From positions 1-64,000 of the IMG/VR virus record IMGVR_UViG_3300025162_000043: a stretch of DNA of 64,000 nucleotides, one strand, 5' to 3'. The position numbers and the translations under genes are program-made. This document shows, in pieces, positions 3,994 through 62,358 of the stretch (positions within the stretch are counted from its first letter, which is position 1; every line of letters begins with the position of its first letter). The notes under the pieces are model-generated. The model searched no databases, was not told the DNA's origin, and was given only the letters and a program-made list of their open reading frames with translations. This DNA is from a virus.

Positions 3994-4524
3994 ATGAAAA
4001 CACCACTGAAAGAAATTAGATATGAAACGCCAATTGCGGATATTGATTTTACAAAACCATCCCTGTTCTTGGCGGGGCCGACAGTCAGAGGAAATCAACC
4101 ACATTTAACTTCTTGGCGATTTGAGGCAATTAGACTATTCGCCAGCAAAGGGTTTGAAGGCAATCTTATTATTCCCGAATTCACCGATAAAACTGAATCG
4201 GATAAGTATCGTTACGATATTCCTATATGGGAATACACTTGTTTGCGTATGTCTCATGTCATTATGTTCTGGATTCCAAGAACCCGAGAATTAATTGGAC
4301 TTACAACGAACCATGAATTAGGATATTGGATGGCTCGTGACCGAAGCAAGGTGATCTATGGCCGACCTGATAATGCTTATAGAATTACGTATTTAGACAT
4401 CATGTGGGTAGAGGATTCCAAGCGAAAAGGATTACGCATGGATAATGATAAATGGTGCCCGATTTATAATACGCTGGATGATACGGTAAATGCAACATTG
4501 AAGAAACTGGCGCAAGAAATATGA
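3994..4524 (+). CDS. Nucleoside 2-deoxyribosyltransferase-like protein
   Basis: A 176-residue protein resembling the PF15891-type family: SLFLAGPTVRG at the first strand, SWRFEAIRLF, IPEF, then WEYTCLRMSHVIMFWIPRTR and GLTTNHELGYWMA, in which the family's catalytic Glu sits (N-H-E). These enzymes break or transfer N-glycosidic bonds of nucleosides, and relatives act on NAD-like or modified nucleotides. It is last in a three-gene operon and followed by a terminator. Confidence 0.75.
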   Translation: MKTPLKEIRYETPIADIDFTKPSLFLAGPTVRGNQPHLTSWRFEAIRLFASKGFEGNLIIPEFTDKTESDKYRYDIPIWEYTCLRMSHVIMFWIPRTRELIGLTTNHELGYWMARDRSKVIYGRPDNAYRITYLDIMWVEDSKRKGLRMDNDKWCPIYNTLDDTVNATLKKLAQEI

Positions 4525-13492: not shown

Positions 13493-13880
13493 AAATTTTA
13501 TATCGAATTACATCGTACCACTGCGGAATTTCCGATAAGTCAAACGTCTGTTTTCCTATGATTAATTTCGCTTTAGGTTTTATTTCATGTATTCCTGCAA
13601 GTTGTTGAAACCGACATCGACACGGACAAGGTTTCTCTTGATTCCAAGAAATCATCAAATTCTGAAAAAAAGATGATTTCTTAACCTTTAATGGTTCATC
13701 ATCACTTTCTAATTCGTCAATTAAATCGTCAATCTCTTCTCGTTTCGATCCCGGTTGACAGGGCAATTTAACTGTAATATCATCAAAAAATATGTTTCCA
13801 TTCTTCGGCGCATTGTCCCGAAGTGCCTTCGTATCATCAAGTGCTTGTTTTATTATCGGATTATTTGTTATTGTGTTCAT
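13458..13880 (-). CDS. Hypothetical 140-residue protein
   Basis: Not recognised. Acidic centre (EEIDDLIDELESDDEP) and a CPCRCRF cysteine cluster near residue 87. Start MNTITNN overlaps the ADP-ribosylglycohydrolase stop as ATGA, so it is probably co-translated. Confidence 0.65.
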   Translation of the reverse strand: MNTITNNPIIKQALDDTKALRDNAPKNGNIFFDDITVKLPCQPGSKREEIDDLIDELESDDEPLKVKKSSFFQNLMISWNQEKPCPCRCRFQQLAGIHEIKPKAKLIIGKQTFDLSEIPQWYDVIRYKICGIKLEIPSKC

Positions 13881-15025
13881 AGGACTCCTTCCATTGGCTG
13901 ACAGAACTGACTCCACTTCTCAGGAGGCGGAGAAACTACTCCTATAATCCCGCCAACAATAGCGCAATTTGTATCTACATCACCGAACGCCATTGAAGTT
14001 TCAATGATAGCTTTTTCATACAATTCAGGTGACTTCCCGTTAAGCGTCAAATGTTTAATCACAAGGTAACAACAAAGCGGCACTGTGTCCTGACATGTAA
14101 CGTGGGTGCCATTCCCAAGGATTTGTATAACCTTGCTAATCGGCATATCATACGGCAAATCCCTCGCTTTGGCAATTCCATTCCACACTTGACCTTTAAG
14201 AGTAAGGCGTAAGAGATTCTGGTAGAAAATCTTGTCTTGATTCGGATAGTCAAGATAGTTGTTAATAGCTGCATCTGTCACATTATGAGACAGGGTAGTA
14301 ACAGCAATTGACCCCGCAATCCCTTCTGGATGACAATGGGTTACTTCGGCTTGTAATGCTGCCTCTGAAACAATTCGTTTCTCAAATCCACATAAACTAC
14401 TACCCTCGGACCATGCGTCTTCATCTCCATGCCACGTAGGCGCAAGAAACGCACCCAATGGGGCAACTCTCATGGCAGAACCATTGCCACAGGAACCTTG
14501 AAGTTCACCTCCCGTTTCGCCTTTCTTCTGCCTTTCCAAAACAAGATTGACCTCATGCATTGCTGCCTTCGTATCTTTCCCTTGGGAAAGACTATCAACC
14601 AAGCTATCAATGTGAGACGGCATACCTTCCGATTTTGGTTTAATAAACTTATTGGCAACTGGCCACGGAATTCCCTCGTAGATGTCTCGGAGAACTTTGC
14701 GAGTGTTGAGTCCATAACCGAAAATTTCTCCGTCGGGATCTCGCGTCATATATCGAGTCGCAAACTCCATAGCCAATTTATTTTGATTAATATATGGACT
14801 ACTTTTAACGTCAACCGCCATTAAATGATTAAAAATTACAATCGACTCTTCCGTATCATCCGAATATTGAAATTGCTTTTGAAACTTATTCAACTGTCCC
14901 CCAAACTGTTTCATTCCTTTTTCAAGAGCTTTAAGTATATCACCTACAGCGTACATTTGGCCCAAATTTCCAATACAATCTCCGACCCATAATCCTTCCA
15001 GTGATCTCTTTGCATAATTTATCAT
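13877..15025 (-). CDS. ADP-ribosylglycohydrolase (DraG/ARH family)
   Basis: Removes ADP-ribose from proteins or small molecules using paired metal ions. The 382 residues show the family signature: GLWVGDCIGN (11-20), SDDTEES (about 55-61, metal ligands), GSCGNGSAMRVAPLG, EVTHCHPEGIAGS and GDVDTNCAIVGG (from about 348, the second metal-ligand cluster). All metal-binding acidic positions seem intact. In a phage it could reverse host defence by ADP-ribosylation or recycle ADP-ribose, which fits the NAD-salvage gene nearby. It heads a coupled minus-strand operon. Confidence 0.92.
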   Translation of the reverse strand: MINYAKRSLEGLWVGDCIGNLGQMYAVGDILKALEKGMKQFGGQLNKFQKQFQYSDDTEESIVIFNHLMAVDVKSSPYINQNKLAMEFATRYMTRDPDGEIFGYGLNTRKVLRDIYEGIPWPVANKFIKPKSEGMPSHIDSLVDSLSQGKDTKAAMHEVNLVLERQKKGETGGELQGSCGNGSAMRVAPLGAFLAPTWHGDEDAWSEGSSLCGFEKRIVSEAALQAEVTHCHPEGIAGSIAVTTLSHNVTDAAINNYLDYPNQDKIFYQNLLRLTLKGQVWNGIAKARDLPYDMPISKVIQILGNGTHVTCQDTVPLCCYLVIKHLTLNGKSPELYEKAIIETSMAFGDVDTNCAIVGGIIGVVSPPPEKWSQFCQPMEGVL

Positions 15026-17104: not shown

Positions 17105-20100
17105 TTACTTGAGCAATTTTGCTGTATGAGGATGCTCCATTATCATACTCACTAAATCTTTAATTATTCCTTCTTCGATAAATACTGAATACTTATCCCA
17201 CAAGAATTGCATTAAGTCTTTGACCGTATTATGATAGTATGGTCCATCCTCAGGAGTCTTCCAATACGCTCCTATACCACTTGCGAAGAAAAATGCACGA
17301 TCAGTTCCTCCTTTATTTTCATATATAACTTTGAAGGCAATATCCGTATCTGGTCCATCGTTGATTTTCTCCACGAACCCTATCTTAGCCAACGTATGAA
17401 CATCATCGGAATTCAATGCGATGGAAGTATTCGGCGGAACATCTGCCCAATAATTCTTCCACCATTCGGCATAGTCCGTACCACTATATGTCATCTCGCC
17501 CGTAACCTTTGGTTTTTTTTGAGTAGATGGTTTATGTTTGTTCCACAAAAACTCCATTCCTTCTTTTACGGATGAAAACTTCGTGGGGTCTGTACTAATA
17601 ACTAACAACGGCGCATTCGCGTCGGGTGTCGTCCACGTTCTCCACTGCGAAGTACCATCATCAAATACTTCAAACACTTCGTCTATAGTATCGGAGATTT
17701 TCTTGAAATATCCTTTGACGTTCGTATCCCGCTCGAATCCTATAGACTTAAGAACATTTTCATCATACAGATTCACCGTAGTTGGGTAATGATGCGAATC
17801 CTTTATTTTGTAAGTAGCACCGCTATATGGCATATCTTCCATATCCTCAGTGCCCGCCAACACTTTCTTTTTTTCATTTCCTTGTATGCTTGGCTTGAAT
17901 TTATCCCATAAGAACTGTAAACATTCCTTCACAGTAGGGAATTGATCCTTCTTCGTCCCAGTTCCCATATCATTTATACTTGCATGACCGTCAGCAAAAA
18001 ATTCAACAAATTGCCCAATCCCCGTTTTCTCATACCATATCACATTTTCAGTTTTCACACGGACAAACCCCATTTTATTCAAGGTTTCTTCGTCTTGTGG
18101 AATAAGACTAATAGTAGTGTAAACAGGCTTTTTCTTCGGGTCTTCAGATGGTTGATTATAATCATGCCCACTATATGGAACTTCATCTGACTGTTTCGCA
18201 GACCCCTTGTTCTTCCATAGCCAACGAATAGGCATTTCAATCTCTTGCCAATTTTGAGTGGGCTGACCATTCTTGTCGCTCCAATACTCCGTAAATCCAG
18301 AAGGATGGAATATCATCTTTTCATTTCCATTTTCATAGGAATATCCAACCTTACTATTACCTACTTCGTTCCAACCCATTTGCTTTAACGTATGCACTTC
18401 GGCTAGATGTATGCTCATACCCTTGCCAGTCCCTATAACTTTCAATGCCACCTTGCCCCATTGCAAATAGTCAGTCCCTGACCACGGCATATCCTCAGTG
18501 CCCGCCAACACTTTCTTTTTTTTGTTTCCTTTTATGCTCGGTGACCCCCCAAATAAGGTTTCCAATTTTTCAATAGCTTCTGGCACACTCAGAGTCCACT
18601 CCTCCAAAATTTTGTGGTATCCTTTCGTCGGCTTTGCATTACTCTTAGTAAACTCTATCGTTTGTTTCTCAACATGATAATTAATAGCGTATTGAAACGT
18701 CGATGTAAACTTCGTGAATAGAATCGGATAACTCTTCGGAGAGTTTGTATCAATATATTTAAATCCAAATTCTTTTATCTTTTCTTTTATCTTTTCTACT
18801 ATAGGTTCTTTCTCATGCGCGGTTGATAAAGGCGATGTTATCCACAACTGTTCCATAACACTCTTGACTGTGATAAAATCAAACTTTTTACCAGTACTAT
18901 CAATCATTCGAGCATGTCCATTCACGAAAAAGTATATGATGTCACCATTTTTACTATTGGAATAATAATAGGCATCATTGTTATCTTGTGATGTAACCCA
19001 TCCTAATTTCTGCATCACCAAATCATCGGCAGGCACAAGCTTAATGGTAGCATCGGGATTGTGCTTTGTATTTTTAGCCCATCCAGAATAATCATATTCC
19101 GAAAATGGCATTGGAGATGAAACTTTTCCTTTTGTCGATGTCCCAATCTCTTGTGGAGGAAGAATTTTTCCTTTTATCGTTGTCCCTATACCAGAAGTTG
19201 TCCCTGTGCCGCTTGGCTTGAATTTATCCCATAAGAACTGTAAACATTCCTTCACAGTAGGGAATTGATCCTTTTTCGTCCCAATTCCCATATCCTTTAT
19301 ACTTGCATGACCATCCCCAAAAAATTCGACAAGTTGTGCAATCCCCACTTTCTCATACCATATCATATGTTCAGTTTGCACACGGTGAAATCCCATTTTA
19401 TTCAAGGTTTCTTCGTCTTGTAGAATAAGACTAATAGTAGTATAAACAGGCTTTTTCTTCGGGTCTTTAGATGGCTGATTATAATCATGCCCACTATATG
19501 GAACTTCATCTGACTGTTTTAATGACGACATCGTTGAATGTTCAGGTGTAGATGCTTCAAAGTTCTTAGATGCAGACCATAGGATGGCGTCATAAAAATT
19601 TGTAAACTTCTTTTCCTTCACTTCTTCATATCCCTCACTGTTATCAGGCCGCATTAATTGCGCCTGTGCTTGTCCATTCCCAAAAAACGTAATGCATACT
19701 TTAAGTCCTCCACTGCCGAAGGCATGTTCATATCTCGTTTCTTCTGACACATAGATAAATCCTTGGAGGATAAGTTCAGCAGAAAGATCAGTGGCAAGAA
19801 GCAATTTGATTCCACTCGTGTTATGATCTTCCAATACATGAAGGCCATATGTCAAACTCTCAAACACGAAAGAACCAAGCAGCCTGTCTACTCCAGCAGT
19901 ATCATAAAGACAGAACTCCATAGTATGATTAGGAAACACCACTACCACTTCCTTGATTTTCAACGTCGTTTTATTATCAGGTAGAAGTTTATCGAAATAC
20001 AAGTCATTAGGCACTAATTTGTTCGTCTGTTCTGCAAACCCAATTATCTTCATCTTACTTTTAAGTTGATCTATCTCATACTTTGACAAAGGATGGAATC

Positions 20101-23100
20101 CCCATTCAAGTTCGCCATACTTCGACTTAAGCATATCGAAGAAATGACCAATGCTGTTATCCATACCCCCGCCCTCACCCATACCAGTAAATTTATACCA
20201 CACAAAACCTTCTTCAAAAATCTTGAACTTGTCTTTTGTCTTGTAATTCTCGTATGTGTTAGTTGTTGCATTGAACACAAATCCTGCCTGTAGAACTGCT
20301 TTATGATCCGAGTCAATCAATTTAACTGCTTTATTTGTGACCGAATACGTATTCCATTCGGGAACCGTTGGTGAGTAATTCTTTGGGTCCAACGGATAGA
20401 TTTTCTTTGGCGCTCCTGTGGATGTTCCCATAAGAAAATATTTCTCAATTCTCAATTGAATTTGACTGAAATCTTTCGAGCAAAAATACCGTGGGTTTCC
20501 TTCTGCGGTATGATAAAAATAAACAATAGTCCCATTCTTATCGAAACGAACGGCCTGCCAACTAGTTCCAACTTTACCATTGATATCTTTCCAAGAGTAC
20601 ATCGCACTATCTGGCATCCATTCAAACCCATAAGCATCTAACTCTTTATGTATCCAATCTTCTGGCTTGATATTAGTCGGATTTTTTTTCGGTGCATACG
20701 GTTGATATGGCGTCCACCCATTTGGAGCATTGAAATAGTTGGCATCACCTTTCTTAAGAGCATCATCTTCGGATTGAACAAAATTTCCAAAGTCGGCATT
20801 CTCTATCTTTTTTATGGTGACCAAAACATAATATAAATCAGAACTTGAGAATTCTCTATAGGTATAAATTTTTTCATCCGTTGTATGAGGATGACTTATG
20901 ACATAAACATTACCAGTCCATTTAATACATGTTCCCACGAACTCATTATACTTTTTGTAATAACTCTTCGTCGAGGGGTCATACTCAAATCCACGATTCC
21001 CAAAATCCTTATGAGCAAACGGCGGAGCTTGAAAACTATCTAAGTCGAGGAACGTCTGGGAAGCATTAGGCTTATTAATGGCAACATTAACTGGCTCCAA
21101 GGGTCCAGGCAAATCCTGCTGAGTATCAACAGGAATAGTCTTAATATTACCAGCTAATTTATGCTTCCATCGCTTCCAAATAAAAGCCAAGACGATAAGA
21201 ATCTTACCTTCTTCCGTTTGTTCTTCTGTATCTTTCTCAAAGTATTGCCAAATAGCATAGCCCGTATCATACGCAGTAAATACTTCATATTTGTCATCTT
21301 TTATGGCGTCTTTATTTATGGCTTCTTGAACTTTAGACATATCATTCGAGCCAAGCTCTTTGATATACTTCATGTTTGCCTTATCAAAATGAAATCCGAG
21401 CTGTTTCATTATAGCATCATCATGAGGATTGAGTTGAATCTCCACTACATTGCCTCCAACATCGGACTTGTAATCTTGATTACTAAATACACTGTGTTTA
21501 ACCACTACGAACTTCAAAGCATGAGGAATGTTATCAAACGTAGTAACCTCCCCGTTTTCAGGTTTATCGGGATGACCGAAATAATCAATATATTCCGCCT
21601 TTCCTGTATCAAAAAATTTAATAATATTTCCCTGCGGATTTTTATAGAGAGGATTTTCCGATGGAAATGGCATAAACTCCATCAATTGGAGTAATTCCGC
21701 ATCATGAACATTCAGCCAAATCATATCAGCATTTCCCTCAACATCATGAGTCTTGTATGCCTTGCCACTAGGAGTCATCGCACCCATTTCATGGTCTGTA
21801 TCTTCCTGAGATGGCATGGCGGCAATAAACATCTGGTCAATAGCTTCTTCATTAACACCAGGAGTAACATTCGCTAACGCCTTCTCCAAAAACTTAGGCT
21901 GGTCATCCTTGAGAATGCCAAATCCTTTCGCTCCTTGACTAAAATGCCAATTGATGGCTTTCTCATACAATTCAAAGTAAAATCCACTCGGGTGAACCCA
22001 CTTATTTCCATATGCGGACAGATTCTCAGACTTGAATCCTTTGCTCTTAAGAAGATCAAGGATTTCGGGACCGGGATAATACATCTCACCCTGGTCATTC
22101 AATGGTCCTTCCGCCTGGCCAAGATTATGTCCATCGGCATCCTTAATAGACTTGTGAGTAACAAGGTTTGTAATATTATTCTTAATCCATTCGACCATCG
22201 CATCTTTATGATGCTCTACAAATGTGTAAACTCTGTACATGCCACTTGGATCGTCTGACACCGCCTGTCTAATATACCACACGACATTGGTTCCGACTAT
22301 CTTTTTGCCGATAGCAAACTTCAAAACATTTCCGCCAAGAATATGAATTTCTCCATTCTCACTGGCATGGCTGGATTGGAAATAAATACTATCAATACTT
22401 CCCGCTGGTGCTCCTATGTCTTTTAAATCCTTCGTGATAAGATTTTTAGCATTAAAATCATTCGTAAGAATACTACCATCATTCGTAGAGAATTTGTCAG
22501 GAGTAAGACCATAAGAGGCACTAGGATTTGCTTCCAAAAAGGTAACTACTTGATACGGATATTTATATAGATGCAGACCAAACTCCTTAACAAGTTTGTT
22601 CATATCAGAAATACGACAAACTGGTTTACTCTCATCAACCTTTCGGTTATAGAATACTGCCCGATAACCATGCGAATTGTAGTAAGCGGCAACTGAATTG
22701 GTTTCATGACTTGGCTTAAAGATCCATCCCAGTTTCTTCATCCTATCGTCATCTTCTTTCGTCAGCCGAATAGAATAGACATTCGTGTAATGCCCGAGAT
22801 CATCATAATAACTCTTGGCGTAATCATCGTCGGAAGATTGTTGTGATGGCCATTGAGACGTTGTTGACATTCCTGCAGCACCAGACAAATAATTCTTCAA
22901 ATCTTGGTTGTTGGTAAATGCTAGATTCGCTTGGGTTGCGGGAAATACTATCTCGGAATTACCATCCAAGGTATAATAATGAAGTTTAGTTCCGTTAGAA
23001 TGCAAGAATATAAGATCTGTGCCTTCTTGAGAATTTTCTTGGCCGTGATATACAAATCCCGATTTAATAATAATATCATTAAGTGATTCGTCCCCCGTGG

Positions 23101-26100
23101 ACCATCCAAGGCCAACATAATCATCGCTATATTCCAACAATATATCAATGCGTTTAGCTAAATCGTATGTACTCTCATATGAAAACGATATTGGATCACT
23201 ATCGTCCACCGTTTGCATAACACCGCCAGATGGAAATGGCACAACTATTAATTTATCATTCGTCCATTTAAACCCCATCTCAGTTAATTGGTCTTCAATT
23301 TTCTGAAACTTTCCTTTCACAAGAACTTGAGTAAAATATGCATCAATCCAACTCTTCGGCTTCAAATACTTATCCGTAAGATATTGCTTTAAAATAGCAT
23401 ATGTATTGAAGAAAAATGACTTGGGCTTCGATGTCCCTGCCAGAACTGATCGGGCAGGAGTAACTGTAGAACTACCATCCGCATGAAGTTCAACATGGTC
23501 AATAACTGGTTTAAGATTTGAAATACTAGTCTTATCCCACTTCGTAGTCCATTGGTGAAACTTATTCTCGGTTTTGAATCCAATAACTTCCAACTGATTT
23601 TGTATATCTATGAGTTCAGAGGATACCTTATTCTCATACTTCATTTCCATCCAAGCAATAAGTTCAGGAATAGTCTTGAATCCCACCATCACTTTACTCC
23701 CACTTGGAGTTTCCTTAGTTTCCTTATACCATACACGAGAACTTCCATCGTCGAAGAGATAAATACGCTCATCCTCATCATTATCATACACTTTGGCATT
23801 CTTGGAAACATTAGCATCAAGCGCAAGCGTTGTTGTATTAATGTAATTATATCCAGCATTGGCCATCAACGAAGCCAACTTGCCTTCGGGCACAATATTT
23901 CCTTCATCAGGAAGAGGCTCATTTTTCATCTCCTTAGAAATAACATCATATATTTCCTCCCAAGAGTTTGCCGTGGATATAATTTTCCATTCGTCAAAAC
24001 TATTATTGGCTTCAAATAACTTGTAAGTTCCGTCGGCCATCTTGGAAAGGACATAATTCTTCCCGCCTGAATCTAATTCGCCCGTCTCAATAAAGACATA
24101 TGGAACCTTTCCCCCCGACTCCTTGGAAGTCATATACTTTCGACGAACTTTAGCTTTCGGCTTATACTCCTTGACCAAATCCTTTATAATCTTTAATTCA
24201 TCATCATCAATTTTATCTACTTCTGTCGGCTCTTCTTTAACATAACTGTTGAGGTAATAATCAAGATACACAAGCATTTTTTCAAATGTATTAAATTTCC
24301 TAATAGGGAAATAAGCATCATTAACTCCTTTGGAAATTACATATTCACCTTCATCTTTAGTAATCTTCAACCACACCTTATGAACAGGATCGGAAATACC
24401 TAAACTATACGCTTCTTCTGGAGACGAAGTATCCTCCGTCAACTTTTTAGTGTACATTGTGGAGATAGTAAGTTTAAACTTCTTAACCAACTTCTTCAAC
24501 TCTTCCACTTCGGTTACAGATAATTTCTCAGGGTTATGAGATGGAGTTGTCTTTGCTAATGGATGCTTAAGCTTGGAATTCTTCAATGCTTTAGCAATAT
24601 GAGTGACCAAATCTTCAATATAAGCCGTCAATTCATTGAACGTAGAAACTTGCTTCTGAATTATCCACTCGCCATTTTTATTCGTATGATTATCCGTATA
24701 AACTCGATAAACATTCTCTTCTTTTGTTATCTTGTAATTCACACTATTATCGCCTACCCATCCCCAAATAATCATCGCATCTCCCGTAGGATCATACCCA
24801 CTAAGATTAGGTAAGTGTTCAATAACAATATCTCCGATTGTCTTTTTCTCGTCGTCAAGCAATTTGGTCGGCACATCACCAGCAGGTGGAGGTTCTCCTA
24901 AATGAACAAGGAACTCGTCATTGTTCCCATCCATGTTCGGCAACCCATGCAGCTTGATATAGTCCAAGAACTGACCGAGATTCTCAATGGCCCATTTAGT
25001 CTTTGCAAGGCCACACGGCCCGCCCGTAACTTGCATAATGTAAACCCGTAACGCCTTAATGGCATTTACTTTTTTCGAATGTAATATTGTAAATTTATCT
25101 TGCTCTAGAAACTCACCACTATTTAACAGATTAAGAATACTATTATTAAATTTCGCTGCCGTGTCTGGAACCTGCCCCTTCAAATAGTAAATCTGGAACC
25201 AATTTGTAAATACTTGTGGATTCTTAGTGTGAATTGGTCCCATCACTCCCTTATGCGTATAAGTCACTGCACCATGTGGTCCCACTGAAATAGTTTCGTT
25301 ACCACCTTTAACATAAGTAAGTGACTTACCTTCCTCGGGCTTAATGGAATTGAAATTGGCACTCGTAGCTAAATCACCAATCATCTTCAATATTTCAGGA
25401 TGAACTTCTGCTTGACTCGCTATCGCAGACAATATGGAGTGGATACGAGCAATAATACCTGCTAAAGTTGGCGAATTGTCTTTGGGTTTGTTCTGGTCAT
25501 CATTAATTTGATAAAAATTGCCAAGTTTCCCAATACTAAATATTATAGTCCCTGGTTCATCAAACTTTGGCTTATGAGTAACTTCAACATAAGCACTCTG
25601 TCCATATGCCGCATGAACATATTCGGACCATACACTTTCTCCATAGCTATCAACTGCTTCTTTAATTTGTTGATAATCCTTTAATGTAATACCTTCTGCG
25701 GGTTTGTCTGTGGGTTTGTCTGGGGCCTCTATCTTATAAGGCTTCAATTGCTCATGCAAATATAAAATTAATTTTTCCCACTCTGGCGCAATAACTACAG
25801 GTTCAAGTATTGGAGAATCAAACAACGGTATTTTTTGGAGGTGAAATTTATTATCAAGTTTTCGAATGGTATAGAGCGTATCGACACCATCTTTAGCCAC
25901 GATGTGAATATAAGCATTTCCAATCGGGTGATCAATATACTTAACTTTGGCAGTTAATCCATAACTAAACACAATCGCCTCAATGATTCCTATCTCTGTT
26001 TCCGATAAAGAATTATTCAAGTTTTGGAGAGATGGGTCTGCAGGCTCTATCTTATAAGGCTTCAATTGCTCATGCAAACATGAAATCATCTTATCCCAAT

Positions 26101-29100
26101 CTGGTGTAAAAACTATACTATTAGCAGATGATGGACCACTGAAACCAACCGAAGGCAGTTTGTTGAAATGAAATTTATTATCAAGTTTTCGAATGTTATA
26201 GAGCGTGTCGATACCATCTTTAGCCATGATGGCTATATAAGCATTTGCTCCAATCTTGGAACCAATATGCTTAACTTTGGCAGTTAATCCATAGCTCTGC
26301 ACAATCTCTTCAATGATTCCCATCTCTGTTTCCGATAAAGAATTAGCTGACTGCGAAAGGGATGGTATAGTTGCCAAATAATTAACTAGAACGTCAGGAG
26401 TATCAAAGTGTTGAGATTCTCCATCGGAAGTTTTAGATATAGACTTCTTATTGCTCTTATCATAGACAATAATTTGACCCGTTGAATTATTCTTATATAC
26501 GTTAACAGTGTCAGAAGTCCCGTCTATTAACTTGAATCCAGAACTGGCGAGTACTACATCAATCTCTTGGTCAGAAGGAGGGGTTAATATTTTTTTTTTG
26601 TCTTGCGGAATATTCTTAAGATATGCGACAAGTGCTGGTAAACTGTCAAAAGTACTCATACTACCTGCGCCATCAACCAATGTGGACTTCGGGAAAGGCT
26701 TAATAGTAATAGTAGAATCATAACCAAAACTATTAGGCTTAATATACTTGCTTATAACCGGATCCCAGTTAAACCCCGCAGTAGAAAGAATTTTTTCATA
26801 CATTGCTCCCGCTTTGGACCCCTTTGGTGAATCCTGTGGTGGAGCTAAAATAGGAGACTGTGTGGCTCCTGAATAATTGACCTTTAACCATTCCAAAGCC
26901 TCTTCAATTTTCTTGGTAATAACAACCGAAATATGGTCCTTGTTGAGAACAAGAATCTTGGCAACATCATTCGGAAAGAACTTGACTGTATCGGCAATAG
27001 TCTTATGAACATACCATACATCAGTGCCTACCATCTTTGGTTCAAATCCTAATTTCTTTATTTCATTCTCATCTTCTGTAGTTAGACGAATGGTATGAGA
27101 AGGTGGTTTATCAATGCCTACATGAGCCGTGTAAGATGCCTTTGATAACGAGGGATAACCCATTGGAGTCGATGATACCTGCGCCATAATTGATGGACTA
27201 GTGGGCGCAAAGATTTGATGCGCTACCTCCGATGCAACTTGAGTAAGCAGCGAGAAATTATCTTCGACAAAACTATAAGTCTGATTCCAGTTGGCAAAAT
27301 GCCAATTTTCATTTTTTCCATCAGTAAGAAAATGGGTAACCACATAGTTCTTGCCCTCGGAAGAAATAGCTTTCTTTTGAATAATAAGAGAAATAAAATC
27401 ATACCCTCCAATCGTGATTGCAAAAGTCACACTTACACCTGGCATAGCATTGGGTACAACTTTAATGCCACTGTGTTGACTTGCGAGAATTTGTAATGTA
27501 TGCACTTCGACCGAAGACATTGCATTGCTGGATTCAGGAGTAATATAAGTGACTGGTGGAGGTGCCCCCACAGATGGAGACGTAGGAACAGCTTTGGACG
27601 GAATAATCTTTGGCGGAGGCGCTGTCATCGACAAACCAATCCATGCCTTACCTTCATCATACTCTGAACTTGGTAATGGCAATGCATTAGCCGTCATATT
27701 TTTGCAATGCTCAAATGCAGCACTCCAATTGTCAGATTTAACACCAATCATTCCAGTGGACTTGACACATCCCATAAACGTTCCGTCGGAAAATGCATAG
27801 AACTGGAATCTATTATCGTTCGGAAGATGTGCCTTATAATAACTATTTGAAGGTCTCCATGCCATCTTGCATTCTTCTAGCAATTTGGTTTCCTTATCGG
27901 CACTCAACTTAATTTTAACCTTTTCCGAAAGATATTTATCCTTTTCCGACATTTTCGTCGGAGTTGATGGTGCATAATTATACTGCCCAGGCGTAGATTT
28001 AACGAAAGAACTAGCATAATGCTTTAGTATTTCTTCAAGCTCTGGCCAAGTGGCAAATACTTGAACATCGGCATCCATCGAATCTGCAATAGAAAATAAT
28101 CCATTCTTATGAAACTTTACTGTATATTTGTAATTAACAGTCTCATTCTTCTTATTCGTAAATGGAGCGTGAACAGTCCATTCCTCCCCCGACGGGGACT
28201 TCACAAATTTGTTCTTCTCCAAAAATGTCTGTTGCTCTGGTGTAAACGGTTGAACAGGACTATGAATGGTCGATTGAATGTCCTTCTCTATCTCTGGATG
28301 TTTGCTAACATACGGAAGTACACGTAGAATAAGCCGCTGAATAAGTGTAGATACATTTGGAAGATAGCGAGATAAACTGATAATTTTAGCACGACGATCC
28401 AATTCAATTGTTGGAACATACATACCACCCTTATCCAAAAGTTCTCCATTATTATGATACAAATCATAGATATGATCAATCTGACCCGCCATTGCCTCAA
28501 TATCTTTGCTTTTCGCTTTTGGCATCAAACTCATGTATGCTTCTACACCAGCCCCCCACTTAGGTCCACCATAACCCTGATTCCATTTAAACTTGTTATA
28601 GCCAAGCATGATGTCGTTCCATGTTAATCCCGATTTATCAATTGCCTTCTTGAGTTTAAGAATAGTGTGAGGACTAAGACGACCAACAGCATAACTTGGG
28701 TTGTTAATACTCTCGGTGAATCCTGTAAGTCCTTTTTTATACTTAAGCAAATACTTATTCGTAAGTACTTTTTTCTGATCTATCCACTGCTTAAGTTTGT
28801 CCTTATTAACTTTCTTAAGTTCATCCGAATAATCAACTGGATCATCTTCTGACTCGGCTCCTGGTGGAACTTCCACAGGAGGCATGTCATAATCAGTATC
28901 ATCAGGCTCCAATGGCGTTTGAACTACTGAAGGTTCTTCTGGTTCTGGCTCAGGTTCAGCTTTCGGTTCAATAGGAGGCTTACCTACTATTGGCTCAACA
29001 GGCTCAGCGGAAGCCGCATCCGCAGGATCAGGAGACATTGGCGAGTAATACTTACAGAACTTTAATAGACGCTTGACAGCATCTTCATTCCCCTTCATAA

Positions 29101-29833
29101 CCGGAATTTTCTCGGCAACAGCAGCATTAAATTCTGATTTGGAAATCTTACCCGAATTTTTATTATAAATTCCAACCAACTTATGACGAAACAGTTGCCA
29201 GTCGGGACAAAGAGAAATAAAATATCGAAATTCTTGAACTAGCGTAAGACGCAAATGCGCCATTAACATATCAGAAACTTGAATAACAACTTCGTCAAAC
29301 ACTTGATCAATAATCTTACGAAGTCTGAAAGGAACAATAGAAACTCCACTTGGATGAAATTCAACATCATTCCAATCGGGAACAAAGAAAACACCCATAG
29401 TATTCCCACCTTGTAGACCAGCCTGAGCGATAGCACTTTTGTATTTATGTTTTTGCTGTGGAGTAAATTCCCCCGCATACTTCGGATTATTAAGATCTGG
29501 ATCTGGTATCGGACTTCCCACAAATCTATGCATTAATTCTATCGCGTAAAAATCATAAAATATCCGTGTAGCACTCTCACAAGTCTTGGGATCGCTCTTT
29601 CCTTTCTTAAGTATGTTCACAAAGGGAGCTTTATAGTGAAGCCTAATTGCAGTTGAAGAACCAGCTTTCGCTTTGGGATCATATTCAAATGTTGATTCTT
29701 CTCCCGCTGGATTAGTGTAATTCATCGTCGCTTCTGTCAAAGCGTTATCAATCTCAATTGAACTATACCCATGCATTATAGGTTGCCTTATTTGAATCGA
29801 TTGATACAATTGGTCTTTAAGTAAAATAGCCAT
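17105..29833 (-). CDS. Giant 4242-residue tandem-repeat protein
   Basis: One uninterrupted frame. Residues 1-280 are a unique N-terminal domain; about 283-345 are a Pro/Glu-rich linker; about 350-530 are another unique helical domain. Most of the rest is a long series of diverged ~90-170-residue units with the pattern L-x-x-MGF/LGF, Y-E-x-x-G, FFxDGHA and a closing LxFLWxK. Some units are recent duplicates, for example those starting VPYSGHDYNQPS (about 17.9-18.2 and 19.2-19.5 kb) and those with LSETExGIIE (about 25.7-26.4 kb). No signal peptide, membrane span or enzyme motif was seen. Such size suggests a virion-associated scaffold, tail or ejected protein, but this is inference. Confidence 0.85.
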   Translation of the reverse strand: MAILLKDQLYQSIQIRQPIMHGYSSIEIDNALTEATMNYTNPAGEESTFEYDPKAKAGSSTAIRLHYKAPFVNILKKGKSDPKTCESATRIFYDFYAIELMHRFVGSPIPDPDLNNPKYAGEFTPQQKHKYKSAIAQAGLQGGNTMGVFFVPDWNDVEFHPSGVSIVPFRLRKIIDQVFDEVVIQVSDMLMAHLRLTLVQEFRYFISLCPDWQLFRHKLVGIYNKNSGKISKSEFNAAVAEKIPVMKGNEDAVKRLLKFCKYYSPMSPDPADAASAEPVEPIVGKPPIEPKAEPEPEPEEPSVVQTPLEPDDTDYDMPPVEVPPGAESEDDPVDYSDELKKVNKDKLKQWIDQKKVLTNKYLLKYKKGLTGFTESINNPSYAVGRLSPHTILKLKKAIDKSGLTWNDIMLGYNKFKWNQGYGGPKWGAGVEAYMSLMPKAKSKDIEAMAGQIDHIYDLYHNNGELLDKGGMYVPTIELDRRAKIISLSRYLPNVSTLIQRLILRVLPYVSKHPEIEKDIQSTIHSPVQPFTPEQQTFLEKNKFVKSPSGEEWTVHAPFTNKKNETVNYKYTVKFHKNGLFSIADSMDADVQVFATWPELEEILKHYASSFVKSTPGQYNYAPSTPTKMSEKDKYLSEKVKIKLSADKETKLLEECKMAWRPSNSYYKAHLPNDNRFQFYAFSDGTFMGCVKSTGMIGVKSDNWSAAFEHCKNMTANALPLPSSEYDEGKAWIGLSMTAPPPKIIPSKAVPTSPSVGAPPPVTYITPESSNAMSSVEVHTLQILASQHSGIKVVPNAMPGVSVTFAITIGGYDFISLIIQKKAISSEGKNYVVTHFLTDGKNENWHFANWNQTYSFVEDNFSLLTQVASEVAHQIFAPTSPSIMAQVSSTPMGYPSLSKASYTAHVGIDKPPSHTIRLTTEDENEIKKLGFEPKMVGTDVWYVHKTIADTVKFFPNDVAKILVLNKDHISVVITKKIEEALEWLKVNYSGATQSPILAPPQDSPKGSKAGAMYEKILSTAGFNWDPVISKYIKPNSFGYDSTITIKPFPKSTLVDGAGSMSTFDSLPALVAYLKNIPQDKKKILTPPSDQEIDVVLASSGFKLIDGTSDTVNVYKNNSTGQIIVYDKSNKKSISKTSDGESQHFDTPDVLVNYLATIPSLSQSANSLSETEMGIIEEIVQSYGLTAKVKHIGSKIGANAYIAIMAKDGIDTLYNIRKLDNKFHFNKLPSVGFSGPSSANSIVFTPDWDKMISCLHEQLKPYKIEPADPSLQNLNNSLSETEIGIIEAIVFSYGLTAKVKYIDHPIGNAYIHIVAKDGVDTLYTIRKLDNKFHLQKIPLFDSPILEPVVIAPEWEKLILYLHEQLKPYKIEAPDKPTDKPAEGITLKDYQQIKEAVDSYGESVWSEYVHAAYGQSAYVEVTHKPKFDEPGTIIFSIGKLGNFYQINDDQNKPKDNSPTLAGIIARIHSILSAIASQAEVHPEILKMIGDLATSANFNSIKPEEGKSLTYVKGGNETISVGPHGAVTYTHKGVMGPIHTKNPQVFTNWFQIYYLKGQVPDTAAKFNNSILNLLNSGEFLEQDKFTILHSKKVNAIKALRVYIMQVTGGPCGLAKTKWAIENLGQFLDYIKLHGLPNMDGNNDEFLVHLGEPPPAGDVPTKLLDDEKKTIGDIVIEHLPNLSGYDPTGDAMIIWGWVGDNSVNYKITKEENVYRVYTDNHTNKNGEWIIQKQVSTFNELTAYIEDLVTHIAKALKNSKLKHPLAKTTPSHNPEKLSVTEVEELKKLVKKFKLTISTMYTKKLTEDTSSPEEAYSLGISDPVHKVWLKITKDEGEYVISKGVNDAYFPIRKFNTFEKMLVYLDYYLNSYVKEEPTEVDKIDDDELKIIKDLVKEYKPKAKVRRKYMTSKESGGKVPYVFIETGELDSGGKNYVLSKMADGTYKLFEANNSFDEWKIISTANSWEEIYDVISKEMKNEPLPDEGNIVPEGKLASLMANAGYNYINTTTLALDANVSKNAKVYDNDEDERIYLFDDGSSRVWYKETKETPSGSKVMVGFKTIPELIAWMEMKYENKVSSELIDIQNQLEVIGFKTENKFHQWTTKWDKTSISNLKPVIDHVELHADGSSTVTPARSVLAGTSKPKSFFFNTYAILKQYLTDKYLKPKSWIDAYFTQVLVKGKFQKIEDQLTEMGFKWTNDKLIVVPFPSGGVMQTVDDSDPISFSYESTYDLAKRIDILLEYSDDYVGLGWSTGDESLNDIIIKSGFVYHGQENSQEGTDLIFLHSNGTKLHYYTLDGNSEIVFPATQANLAFTNNQDLKNYLSGAAGMSTTSQWPSQQSSDDDYAKSYYDDLGHYTNVYSIRLTKEDDDRMKKLGWIFKPSHETNSVAAYYNSHGYRAVFYNRKVDESKPVCRISDMNKLVKEFGLHLYKYPYQVVTFLEANPSASYGLTPDKFSTNDGSILTNDFNAKNLITKDLKDIGAPAGSIDSIYFQSSHASENGEIHILGGNVLKFAIGKKIVGTNVVWYIRQAVSDDPSGMYRVYTFVEHHKDAMVEWIKNNITNLVTHKSIKDADGHNLGQAEGPLNDQGEMYYPGPEILDLLKSKGFKSENLSAYGNKWVHPSGFYFELYEKAINWHFSQGAKGFGILKDDQPKFLEKALANVTPGVNEEAIDQMFIAAMPSQEDTDHEMGAMTPSGKAYKTHDVEGNADMIWLNVHDAELLQLMEFMPFPSENPLYKNPQGNIIKFFDTGKAEYIDYFGHPDKPENGEVTTFDNIPHALKFVVVKHSVFSNQDYKSDVGGNVVEIQLNPHDDAIMKQLGFHFDKANMKYIKELGSNDMSKVQEAINKDAIKDDKYEVFTAYDTGYAIWQYFEKDTEEQTEEGKILIVLAFIWKRWKHKLAGNIKTIPVDTQQDLPGPLEPVNVAINKPNASQTFLDLDSFQAPPFAHKDFGNRGFEYDPSTKSYYKKYNEFVGTCIKWTGNVYVISHPHTTDEKIYTYREFSSSDLYYVLVTIKKIENADFGNFVQSEDDALKKGDANYFNAPNGWTPYQPYAPKKNPTNIKPEDWIHKELDAYGFEWMPDSAMYSWKDINGKVGTSWQAVRFDKNGTIVYFYHTAEGNPRYFCSKDFSQIQLRIEKYFLMGTSTGAPKKIYPLDPKNYSPTVPEWNTYSVTNKAVKLIDSDHKAVLQAGFVFNATTNTYENYKTKDKFKIFEEGFVWYKFTGMGEGGGMDNSIGHFFDMLKSKYGELEWGFHPLSKYEIDQLKSKMKIIGFAEQTNKLVPNDLYFDKLLPDNKTTLKIKEVVVVFPNHTMEFCLYDTAGVDRLLGSFVFESLTYGLHVLEDHNTSGIKLLLATDLSAELILQGFIYVSEETRYEHAFGSGGLKVCITFFGNGQAQAQLMRPDNSEGYEEVKEKKFTNFYDAILWSASKNFEASTPEHSTMSSLKQSDEVPYSGHDYNQPSKDPKKKPVYTTISLILQDEETLNKMGFHRVQTEHMIWYEKVGIAQLVEFFGDGHASIKDMGIGTKKDQFPTVKECLQFLWDKFKPSGTGTTSGIGTTIKGKILPPQEIGTSTKGKVSSPMPFSEYDYSGWAKNTKHNPDATIKLVPADDLVMQKLGWVTSQDNNDAYYYSNSKNGDIIYFFVNGHARMIDSTGKKFDFITVKSVMEQLWITSPLSTAHEKEPIVEKIKEKIKEFGFKYIDTNSPKSYPILFTKFTSTFQYAINYHVEKQTIEFTKSNAKPTKGYHKILEEWTLSVPEAIEKLETLFGGSPSIKGNKKKKVLAGTEDMPWSGTDYLQWGKVALKVIGTGKGMSIHLAEVHTLKQMGWNEVGNSKVGYSYENGNEKMIFHPSGFTEYWSDKNGQPTQNWQEIEMPIRWLWKNKGSAKQSDEVPYSGHDYNQPSEDPKKKPVYTTISLIPQDEETLNKMGFVRVKTENVIWYEKTGIGQFVEFFADGHASINDMGTGTKKDQFPTVKECLQFLWDKFKPSIQGNEKKKVLAGTEDMEDMPYSGATYKIKDSHHYPTTVNLYDENVLKSIGFERDTNVKGYFKKISDTIDEVFEVFDDGTSQWRTWTTPDANAPLLVISTDPTKFSSVKEGMEFLWNKHKPSTQKKPKVTGEMTYSGTDYAEWWKNYWADVPPNTSIALNSDDVHTLAKIGFVEKINDGPDTDIAFKVIYENKGGTDRAFFFASGIGAYWKTPEDGPYYHNTVKDLMQFLWDKYSVFIEEGIIKDLVSMIMEHPHTAKLLK

Positions 29834-32634: not shown

Positions 32635-32667
32635 CAACTACTCCTAGCCTAAAGGCATAGGGGCTTG
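32635..32667 (-). ncRNA. tnpB right-end / omegaRNA 3' hairpin
   Basis: Overlaps the last codons of tnpB: AAGCCCCTATGCCTTTAGGC, then TAGGAGTAGTTGAC. TnpB omegaRNAs typically end in such a hairpin at the element's right end and read the guide from the adjacent flank, here toward lower coordinates. It gives the reference for the hairpin family found elsewhere. Confidence 0.6.
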
Positions 32668-33837
32668 TAATACTTCCTTACTAGCAGAAGATTTACATAC
32701 AATTGGCGAATTGACTGTCGCCTGCCCATAAGTCAGATTCGAGGTCTGTGATACGGGAAGTTTGGATAATTTTGCTATATTTATACTAGCATTGATATCC
32801 GCATCATAAACAAGACCGTTTTTAGAATAAAACCTACAACCATGTCTTTCACCTTCAATCTTACCGCTTACGCAGTCAGTTTGAGAAGTATAAGATGGGC
32901 GAACGAAAGTTATGGTTTTACCCATATTCTCTGCCTTATATGTTATTATTCTACGGAGTTCAAACATCGGTACTTGACTAATGTTTCTCTTATTTTGATA
33001 TCTATTTTTCTTTTTCTTTATTCCTTTGAGATTTTCTAATACAATGGTGTCGGCATTAGTTTTTAATACTTCATTGGCAATTAAATGAGTTTGATTTTTA
33101 TTTTGGTTATGCTCTTTATGACGCAGTTTGTTAAGATGTTTTTTGGATGATTTATTACTTTTAGATTTAAGACAATCTTTTAAATGTCTTAACTTACGTT
33201 TATTACCATTAAATTTTTTATCAATAATTAATCTACCATCTGATGTGGCGGCACTACGTCTAATTCCTATATCAACCCCCAATGCTAATTTCTGGTTTAA
33301 CATTTCTTTTGGTTTATTTTCAAAACAAAAAGAAATAAACAATTTTCCATTATTTTCGTAAATAAGCGGATCTTTATATTGATATTTATCCAATAGTTTC
33401 TTAAGTTGTGGATAAACAACAAATTTAAAAGACTGTCGTTTGTTATTAGTGGTAATTCGGATGGAATATTTATCTTTTTTATCTTGAGAATAAAGTCGTT
33501 TATCAAGACGCATTGATAAATTCTTCTTAATAATTGGAAATTTTAATTTGTGTTTATTAGATTTTGTGGATTTGTAACTGGAAAGACACTCCTGTTCCGC
33601 TTTAATAATTACTTGAGATGGAATGTTTGAATATTGTTTTCGAATATTATTATAAACTTTAGAATGGAGAATTATCAGCGAATTCTTTTTTTCAGTAAAT
33701 TGAAGTTGGGAAGCGAAGTTAAATACTATTTTATGCATATCAAGAATTGATTTCAGCGAATCAAAATCTTCTTCATTTTTCATTAAAAGTTGAGTATTAT
33801 AACTTAGCACACTAATATATATCATTGAAATTATCAA
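32644..33837 (-). CDS. tnpB: TnpB, IS605-family RNA-guided nuclease
   Basis: A 397-residue TnpB. RuvC motifs are present: LGVDIGIRR (Asp189), TIVLENL (Glu268) and DADINA (Asp347). The zinc-finger region YTSQTDCVSGK keeps only two clear cysteines (322 and 334) instead of four, so it may be weakened. No tnpA is nearby. The 3' coding sequence matches the remnant in the two 402-bp elements. TnpB nucleases cut DNA next to a short motif using the omegaRNA. A start at 33825 is also possible. Confidence 0.9.
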   Translation of the reverse strand: MIISMIYISVLSYNTQLLMKNEEDFDSLKSILDMHKIVFNFASQLQFTEKKNSLIILHSKVYNNIRKQYSNIPSQVIIKAEQECLSSYKSTKSNKHKLKFPIIKKNLSMRLDKRLYSQDKKDKYSIRITTNNKRQSFKFVVYPQLKKLLDKYQYKDPLIYENNGKLFISFCFENKPKEMLNQKLALGVDIGIRRSAATSDGRLIIDKKFNGNKRKLRHLKDCLKSKSNKSSKKHLNKLRHKEHNQNKNQTHLIANEVLKTNADTIVLENLKGIKKKKNRYQNKRNISQVPMFELRRIITYKAENMGKTITFVRPSYTSQTDCVSGKIEGERHGCRFYSKNGLVYDADINASINIAKLSKLPVSQTSNLTYGQATVNSPIVCKSSASKEVLQAPMPLG

Positions 33838-49460: not shown

Positions 49461-49529
49461 AATGCCATTGGCTATAAGAAATACTGGCCAGTAAATCTAT
49501 TCTAACTATATGATTCATATCAAGACAGG

Positions 49530-49552
49530 AAAAAACGGCAGGAACCCCCTGC
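49530..49552 (-). terminator. Terminator of the 49636 gene
   Basis: On the minus strand GGCAGGGGG/TTCCTGCC hairpin followed by T-run. It lies beyond the CRISPR-repeat-like insertion. Confidence 0.7.
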
Positions 49553-49575
49553 CGCCAATATGACTAACACCACAC

Positions 49576-49656
49576 CTTAAGGCTTCCAAAATTTATGTTT
49601 CAATCCGCATCCCTTGCGGGATGATATACCGCATCTTAAGGCTTCCAAAATTTATG
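49576..49656 (-). CRISPR. Solitary CRISPR-repeat-like unit between direct repeats
   Basis: A 22-bp direct repeat (CTTAAGGCTTCC plus AAAATTTATG) at 49576-49597 and 49635-49656 flanks 37 bp with GTTTCAATCCGCATCCC, TTGC, GGGATG. GTTTCAATCC at one end (ATTGAAAC on the other strand) plus an internal hairpin is the classical layout of many type I/III CRISPR repeats. There is one unit only and no cas genes, so it is a solitary repeat at most. Confidence 0.4.
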
Positions 49657-50139
49657 ACGGGCTACATCGTATGCTTCTTTAACATTTGACCCGTGTCCAT
49701 ATACGTTCTCGTGACATAATGGATCACAGGGTATGTTATTGCACCAAACCTGTATTCCCGCATCATCTGCAATTACAGTCATTGGCCCATCACAAAGAGG
49801 ACATTTATATATCAGGTTTCCTGTAGTTACCACACGATGATTCAATTTAGCCACTGGAGGCGTCGAAACCACTGGAGGCGGGTTAGACATGGTTTGACGC
49901 ATTACAGTGGCTAGAATAGGCCCTGGCGAATTAGTACAGGCATTACCAGTTACAAGTCTGTAGAGATTTGATGCCTTTCCTCTGCCAGAAGGTTGTGGAC
50001 GAGTACCTGTTTTTACAATAATACCACTCTTAAGGTCATCTTGAAGCAAAAAATAAATTGAAAGCTTCTCTCTGCCATTAGAATCTGCCAATTCAGCTTG
50101 AGTAAATTCACCGTCGGGATATTGTAATGTATTAACCAT
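49636..50139 (-). CDS. Possible winged-helix protein with zinc ribbon
   Basis: A 167-residue protein. The N-terminal 65 residues (FTQAELADSNGREKLSIYFL then SGRGKASNLYRLV) look like a winged helix; a Pro-rich linker follows; the C-terminal part has YKCPLCDGPM and WCNNIPCDPLCHENVYG, a zinc ribbon. Could be a DNA-binding regulator. Its last codons are one copy of the 22-bp direct repeat. Confidence 0.55.
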   Translation of the reverse strand: MVNTLQYPDGEFTQAELADSNGREKLSIYFLLQDDLKSGIIVKTGTRPQPSGRGKASNLYRLVTGNACTNSPGPILATVMRQTMSNPPPVVSTPPVAKLNHRVVTTGNLIYKCPLCDGPMTVIADDAGIQVWCNNIPCDPLCHENVYGHGSNVKEAYDVARHKFWKP

Positions 50140-55890: not shown

Positions 55891-56664
55891 ATATGCACTT
55901 TCGCATGTCTTTCGTAATTGTCAAATTCTTTCTCTCTATTTTTCTTTTTCTTTTCTCAACCCCCACCAAAAAACAAATACTGGCCAGTAATTGTTTGAAG
56001 AAATACTGGATAGTATTTGTTTTTTATGCCAGTAAATAAGCATACTTATGTTCGGTGAGAATAGACACATTTATATACGTATATATATGTGTAAAGAATA
56101 TTTACACTTTGTAATGCAAAGTGATTTGCAGCGCAAAGTATATATACCAGTAAATAGTATAGATAACGCTCGGTGAAATTGGGTAAATATATGCTGTTTT
56201 GCTAAGGAATATGCATATTTATCACTCGGTGAGATTGAAATGTATTTATATACGTATTGCTTTCTATTGGAATATATGTGTATGTATTCTTTATATTTCA
56301 TTCAAATTGCTCTGTATCACAGAGTAAATTACAAGAAATATAAAAACTGAGAATTTAACAAGTGAATACGTATTCAAAAATGAATTATAATATATCTATA
56401 CGTTGCATTAGAATTACTGGATAGTAATTATTTCATAAACATTAGAGTTACTGGATAGTATTTGTTTACGCATACCAGTAAATAAGCATACTTTAATTCG
56501 GTGACATTTGCATGGATAGGCGAAAGGAAACTGGAATATGGATATATGCACGTCTATACACCAGTAATAAGCATACTTTAATTCGGTGACATTTGCATGG
56601 ATACAACGTATATTTTACGATGATATCTGGGATATGTATTGGCAAAAAGAAGTAAGGAATAATT
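55891..56664. promoter_or_regulatory. AT-rich gene-free region with repeats, possible origin
   Basis: Contains the last TACTGGCCAGTA (55978-55989), TACTGGATAGTA-type variants, and modules of CCAGTAAATAAGCATACTTT plus AATTCGGTGAC plus ATTTGCATGGATA at 56475-56518 and 56561-56603, with a shorter copy at 56029-56064. There are several TACGTA-centred palindromes, including TGAATACGTATTCA near 56368. Very AT-rich with iterated motifs, so it could be a replication origin or a control region. Confidence 0.5.
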
Positions 56665-60651: not shown

Positions 60652-62358
60652 CTATGTCAAAATTTCAGCATCTTCATACCAATTATTATTTCTCCATTTA
60701 AGTGCCTCGGTAATAGTTGAAATTCCCGGTTCTATACCTTCAATATGCCAAGTTTTAATGGATGGATTTAACATTTTAAGATACCGAGCATCTTTAACTT
60801 CATTACTCAAATCAATACTATATAATTCATAATTTCCTCTTTTTTCGAGTAATTTATGGGGCAGTGAGTTCATTGCTCTTTCAACACCAACTTTCCTCAG
60901 CAATTCCCGACGTACCTCTGTATTAGTTTCCTTTAATATCATTTCACCAGAAATTTCATGGCTCGGAGTCATTACATATTCTTTTTTCATAACAACTCCA
61001 TTCAACGCATAAATCTCATTATCTCCATTATAAGATAATGCTGGACCATTTTCGCAATGTAAGCCACTATTATTCTTCTTAATTATTGTTGGTGGCTGAC
61101 AGACGATGCATAATTCATCAAGAGGAAAAACCATTCCATAGTCCTGACAATTTTTAAATGTATCATATTCGGGTGGATAGTTAATACCGCATTCATTTCT
61201 AAAGAATTCATAGAAAGAGAACCATCCTGCCCAGAATTGGCAATCAAAGTAAGGATACACGAAAGTCAACTCTTGTCCATTTAACTTAACTTGTTCCCCA
61301 ACTTGTGAATCAACTTGTGACTCAACTTGTGACCGAACCTGCGAATAAACTTGTGATCTAACTTGTGAATCAACTTGTGACTCAACTTGTGACCGAACCT
61401 GTGAATTAACTTGTGATCTAACTTGTGAATTAACGTGTAGCCTAACTTGCGAATAAATTTGTGACCTAACGTGTGATCCCACTTGTAACCATACTTGTGA
61501 ATTAACTTGTGAACCAACTTGTGACCTAATTTGTTCCCCAACTTGTGAATTAACTTGTGAACCAACTTGTGACTGAACCTGTGAATAAACTTGTGACCAA
61601 ACTTGTGGATTAACTTGTGATGCAACCTGTGACCTAACTTGTGACCCAAATTCATAATGAATTTGCGATACAACTTGTGAATTAACTTGTGACCAAACTT
61701 GTGAACTAACTTGTGACCAAACTTGTGACCCAACTTGCAATGCAACTTGTGACCAAACTTGTGAATTAACTTGTGATGCAACTTGTGAATTAACTTGTTC
61801 CCTAACTTGTGATCTAACTTGTGAACTAACTTGTGAACTAACTTGTGAATTAACTTGTTCCCTAACTTGTTCCCTAACTTGTGAACTAACTTGTGAACTA
61901 ACTTGTGAATTAACTTGTTCCCTAACTTGTGACCAAACTTGTGAATCAACTTGCGAATAAACTTGTTCCCTAACTTGTGACCCAACTTGCAATGCAACTT
62001 GTGACCCAACTTGTGACCAAACTCGTGAATAAACTTGTGACTCAACTTGTGAATTAACTTGTGAACTAACTTGTGAATAAACTTGTGACCAAACTTGTGG
62101 TCTGACTTGCGATTTGATTTGTTCTTGAGATTTATTAAAAAGTAATTTAACAATACTGACCGCAATCCAGCATTTTAATGGAGAATCAAGAATTACGACT
62201 GGAGCCACGGATTTTTTTAAGATGTTTTTTTGAAACAGACTAAAATCAATGATGGCATTTTCCAGAGATTTCGGTTTAATAGTCAGTCCCTTTTCTGTCC
62301 AAAGTTTAACATATTCTGGAAACTTGTTGATTTGTAACTGTGATAAAGTGTTAATCAT
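60652..62358 (-). CDS. SQV tetrad-repeat protein with DUF6745-like domain
   Basis: 568 residues. Residues 1-80 are an N-terminal helical domain. About 81-355 are roughly 70 tandem four-residue units S-Q-V-x (x is often N, R, Y, W or S; some E-Q-V), a run seen in some proteins with a DUF6745 module. The C-terminal 200 residues have the module's features: LHCENGPALSYNGDNEIYAL, GVVMKKEYV, LKETNTEVRRELLRKVG and KTWHIEGIEPGISTITEAL. The 12-bp DNA repeat is ACTTGTGAxxxA on the plus strand. Likely forms a long beta stack or rod by pattern; function unknown. Confidence 0.75.
   Translation of the reverse strand: MINTLSQLQINKFPEYVKLWTEKGLTIKPKSLENAIIDFSLFQKNILKKSVAPVVILDSPLKCWIAVSIVKLLFNKSQEQIKSQVRPQVWSQVYSQVSSQVNSQVESQVYSRVWSQVGSQVALQVGSQVREQVYSQVDSQVWSQVREQVNSQVSSQVSSQVREQVREQVNSQVSSQVSSQVRSQVREQVNSQVASQVNSQVWSQVALQVGSQVWSQVSSQVWSQVNSQVVSQIHYEFGSQVRSQVASQVNPQVWSQVYSQVQSQVGSQVNSQVGEQIRSQVGSQVNSQVWLQVGSHVRSQIYSQVRLHVNSQVRSQVNSQVRSQVESQVDSQVRSQVYSQVRSQVESQVDSQVGEQVKLNGQELTFVYPYFDCQFWAGWFSFYEFFRNECGINYPPEYDTFKNCQDYGMVFPLDELCIVCQPPTIIKKNNSGLHCENGPALSYNGDNEIYALNGVVMKKEYVMTPSHEISGEMILKETNTEVRRELLRKVGVERAMNSLPHKLLEKRGNYELYSIDLSNEVKDARYLKMLNPSIKTWHIEGIEPGISTITEALKWRNNNWYEDAEILT
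61281..62140 (-). repeat. 12-bp tandem repeat array inside the SQV gene
   Basis: About 70 units of 12 bp with core ACTTGTGA (plus-strand reading) and three variable bases. Because the period is a multiple of three, a second minus-strand frame reads HKL-x units for 294 codons without a stop. Confidence 0.8.

Follow-up and report, generated by a model that had tools for sequence, protein, structure and literature searches.

We find that the window analysed here, a stretch of 64,000 nucleotides from a 78-kb virus contig, carries at 49597-49625 a solitary, type I-C-like repeat unit that has been inserted with duplication of its target, the end of a phage gene, and we are inclined to think that it acts as an RNA decoy of the Racr type. 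The unit, TTTCAATCCGCATCCC-TTGC-GGGATGA, with GTTTCAATCCGCATCCCTTGCGGGATG occupying 49597-49623 of the window sequence, is read on the minus strand, where in crRNA sense it runs 5'-ATCATCCC GCAA GGGATGCGGATTGAAAC-3'. Its stem CATCCC/GGGATG (49608-49613/49618-49623) forms on the same strand a stem-loop of 6 bp with a loop of 4 (49608-49623), a hairpin that as a lone 51-nt RNA folds moderately better than shuffles (z -2.2). On either side lies a 22-bp exact direct repeat, CTTAAGGCTTCCAAAATTTATG, at 49576-49597 and 49635-49656, of which we found no further copy in the window and none at all in shuffles of it. Allowing two mismatches, the copies stay alike over 29 bp, from 49569 to 49597 and from 49628 to 49656 at a spacing of 59, and the G of GTTTC is common to the left repeat and the unit. 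As originally predicted, these repeats duplicate the 3' end of a gene: the right copy is the original end of a minus-strand ORF of 167 aa (49636-50139, ending ...HKFWKP*), its last seven codons being copied in the left one, and 11 nt separate the ORF's stop codon from the unit. Followed in crRNA sense, the gene thus gives way after these 11 nt to the hairpin and GCGGATTGAAAC; then come the duplicated gene end and, downstream of both unit and second repeat, a predicted intrinsic terminator (49534-49556, minus strand). Like solitary repeat units (SRUs) by definition, the unit is intergenic, between the ORF end at 49636 and the predicted terminator; it is the single copy in the 78-kb record, and no second repeat occurs within the roughly 100 bp that the SRU single-repeat criterion covers. 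The idea that the window hairpin is itself a terminator was rejected, since the T-tailed predicted terminator lies further down.

The 167-aa ORF has no Pfam, NCBIfam or PADLOC match and no relative that we could find in viral contigs or phages, and with no family match the idea that it encodes an anti-CRISPR protein was dropped. The NAPRTase gene of the record has its nearest counterparts in uncultured phages 462-735 kb in size, so that the record itself may be a fragment of a larger genome. That gene (1144-2316) is accompanied in the window by a nucleoside deoxyribosyltransferase-like gene (3994-4524) and an ADP-ribosylglycohydrolase gene (13877-15025), all of which perhaps serve NAD supply or counter-defence. 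Also present are a 4242-aa ORF without a PHROGs match (17105-29833), a gene for a TnpB-family RNA-guided endonuclease (32644-33837) and about 67 copies of a 12-bp repeat (61287-62099) within a 568-aa ORF with a DUF6745 match. The palindrome TACTGGCCAGTA occurs in twenty copies between 35628 and 56022 of the window (0.02 expected), often paired 26-71 bp apart, and one copy lies near the unit at 49482.

That the unit is a solitary CRISPR-repeat-like element, as had been proposed from the sequence alone, is supported by an independently built model, by a published type I-C repeat with GCGGATTGAAAC (PMC5944118) and by 67 comparable units elsewhere. The model, R1, is a covariance model for which 16 solitary units were taken, all from other contigs, 32 nt long and of the canonical type I-C form GTCGCCCC...GTGGATTGAAAC; neither the window nor the whole record has a better match to it than the window unit (E=0.006 and E=0.007, respectively), whose score is weak in absolute terms (19 bits). 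Rfam CRISPR-DR9 likewise aligns over its whole length at 21.4 bits, below its gathering score of 45, and the unit's 5' edge is ATATC where the canonical edge is GTCGC or GCATC. Neither a second repeat nor Cas1 was found in the record, and an exact-pattern scan of 84,980 species genomes found no array with the unit's arms, the SRUFinder criterion being 90% identity or more to known CRISPR repeats. The proposed comparison with host repeats thus tells against a perfect host match and leaves one at the level of class, and because the arms were not found as an array we regard the match as one to a repeat class and not to a known host repeat. Within that class, the type I-C repeat of Thiodictyon syntrophicum CRR3, GCATCGCCCGGCCAATTGGCCGGGCGCGGATTGAAAC, shares the GCGGATTGAAAC 3' edge with a hairpin directly upstream of it, although unlike the window unit it is 37 nt long, has a longer stem and belongs to a 37-spacer array with cas8c (PMC5944118). 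A Chlorobium I-C repeat reads GTCGCGCCCCCTGCGGGCGCGTGGATTGAAAC (PMC8226683). We also observed a Desulfobacterota genome in which a GTTTCAATCCACGCCCC array shares its contig with a Cas5d gene at a distance of about 26 kb.

Scans of viral contigs place the window unit within a family of 68 distinct solitary units that share the head GTTTCAATCCGC, a paired stem and a GA end (the CCGC class), beside 42 distinct solitary units with canonical GTTTCAATCCAC (the CCAC class), a few of the units in these counts coming from bacterial loci. At stem positions left unconstrained by the search pattern both bases pair in 20/26 CCGC and 32/41 CCAC units, and the stems differ widely in sequence while keeping their complementarity. 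When 23 records were searched with the 12-base head, further dispersed copies came to light, five in one record (L018) and two in each of four others, and among such copies within single phages nearly all have a stem that pairs but differs in sequence. Of the 45 CCGC units outside long ORFs, 34 have their upstream gene on the strand of their crRNA sense (34:11, p=8e-4), its stop mostly within 35 nt of the unit; a unit working as RNA on the gene's transcript would be expected to show such a bias. The same head and similar stems occur in a true array of seven CCGC-class repeats on a contig with a P22-like portal gene, and hence phage-borne (L203:9691-10160), and a mini-array of two identical 37-nt CCGC repeats around one 35-nt spacer (L198:1369-1475) seemingly interrupts a ParB-like coding start. 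These virus-borne arrays share head and stem class with the window unit and differ from it in having spacers between identical repeats. Both units of another record (G003; L131:190-260 and 870-930) have, left of GTTTCAATCC, an apparent second copy of their own hairpin. Four candidates were set aside: matches in a hemH-like coding sequence (L008) and in a Brevundimonas phage (L142) as chance, L143 as an array-terminal degenerate repeat, and L144 as a single unit beside an I-E-like array.

The freedom of the stem sequence, with structure and place behind genes persisting, would also suit a phage RNA element with some other job, such as mRNA 3'-end protection, processing or regulation, that merely resembles a CRISPR repeat. 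We take this to be a real though minority possibility, consistent too with a 5' end that departs from GTCGC and with the lack of a matching array for the window unit among the 84,980 genomes. The 12-nt GCGGATTGAAAC edge and GC-rich stem are however those of published type I-C repeats and of the phage-borne seven-repeat array, and the separate predicted terminator after the unit likewise speaks against it.

Insertion of the unit together with duplication of its target is indicated by the family as a whole. Abutting direct repeats scoring 6 or more flank 11/68 CCGC units, where randomly chosen places in these contigs lead one to expect 1.3 (p=6e-8) and flanks swapped between loci 0.55. Among these 11 the window, chosen for its duplication, and L004, found by its similarity to the window, are not independent, whereas the other nine are, and two or three of the weaker duplications may be chance. 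No recognisable duplication is present at 57/68 CCGC units, and 2/42 canonical CCAC units have one that abuts. In L004 a 19-bp duplication copies the end of a small membrane-protein ORF, and in eight relatives without the unit the next gene lies 25-55 nt from a conserved motif, versus 95 nt in L004; subtracting unit and one repeat (54) leaves 41, within the range of the relatives. Such empty sites, together with the family-wide enrichment, support the earlier suggestion of a target-site duplication. For the window phage itself no relatives without the unit were found among the viral contigs and phages searched. A phage-encoded Cas1 or reverse transcriptase as the inserting enzyme was rejected, since neither turned up in the 24 unit-bearing records searched, many of which are fragments, so that the insertion has to be put down to an enzyme of the host or to an accident of replication.

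One such route would be off-target spacer integration, in which host Cas1-Cas2 inserted a repeat-derived prespacer and so duplicated the target. Most inserts are about 27-38 nt, a spacer-like length, and spacer insertion does duplicate the target repeat (PMC11656645), but the duplications vary in length from about 9 to 29 bp instead of keeping to one repeat length and no Cas1 was found in the 24 records, so that we consider this route improbable. Slightly less credible still, and already disfavoured by the L004 relatives and the enrichment over local background, is an ordinary local duplication, in which a chance hairpin and a replication-slippage duplicate came together without function. The phage does have other short duplications, including at 56481-56603 another repeat-insert-repeat, a 38-bp exact duplication (56481/56566) around a 47-bp insert; yet a like architecture surrounds like units in L004, L044, L159 and others, and the units show a strand bias. 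Lastly, the unit might be a one-repeat guide, the duplicated gene end serving as a spacer that steers host Cascade against relatives without the insertion, as might be suggested by the repeat's position, in crRNA sense, immediately ahead of the second copy and by the one-spacer and seven-repeat arrays of the same class in L198 and L203. The type I-C motif is TTC, whereas 5' of the native copy the three clearest sites (window, L004 and L044) end in CGT, AGC and GCT, and a spacer role of the duplicate, which we regard as very improbable, was rejected on this ground.

Returning to the RNA decoy, we envisage that a type I-C-like solitary repeat arrived at the gene end as one separate stretch of some 30-37 bp, possibly through a host integrase or through template switching at a staggered break, and that the insertion would have left the gene whole by duplicating 22-29 bp of its target. 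Transcription of the upstream gene would then run on through the unit, which would belong to the 3' untranslated RNA that stops at the predicted terminator just beyond, and the unit's hairpin and GCGGATTGAAAC would mimic a CRISPR repeat. Judged from its sense orientation, its position behind a gene and the predicted terminator, an RNA anti-CRISPR function of the window unit is plausible. The closest known parallel is Racr/SRU and especially RacrIC1, which inhibits type I-C immunity and is likewise a single CRISPR-like viral repeat with no cas genes found, in sense orientation and 11 nt behind an ORF; for RacrIF1 the inhibitory portion lies upstream of the processing site (PMC10651486). Processing by Cas5d yields a 5' handle of 11 nt, and the protein remains bound to the hairpin (PMC5965380). 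By analogy, the window RNA may be bound by a host Cas5d and so seed a non-productive complex, the decoy occupying Cas5d/Cas7. If so, a minus-strand RNA ending near 49530 and cut before CGGATTGAAAC would be expected. The window unit differs from Racr/SRU in having no identified matching array, a stem of its own and a flanking target duplication, a term search of the Racr paper having found no mention of "duplication" (PMC10651486). REP/REPIN mobile elements are also tiny dispersed hairpins, apparently of another sequence family (PMC3116915).

We found no description of a variant class whose stems vary freely and which shows signs of insertion by target duplication, the solitary-unit kind itself being known from the Racr work. 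The step by which viruses acquire solitary CRISPR repeats becomes accessible to direct test through the target duplications at these units and the empty sites in relatives. The same duplications and empty sites point to phages with several putative decoys of unlike stems. At present we can only tentatively propose that solitary repeats of the GCGGATTGAAAC class enter phages as discrete target-duplicating units, that one phage may gather several with unlike stems, and that this pathway could supply phages with RNA decoys.
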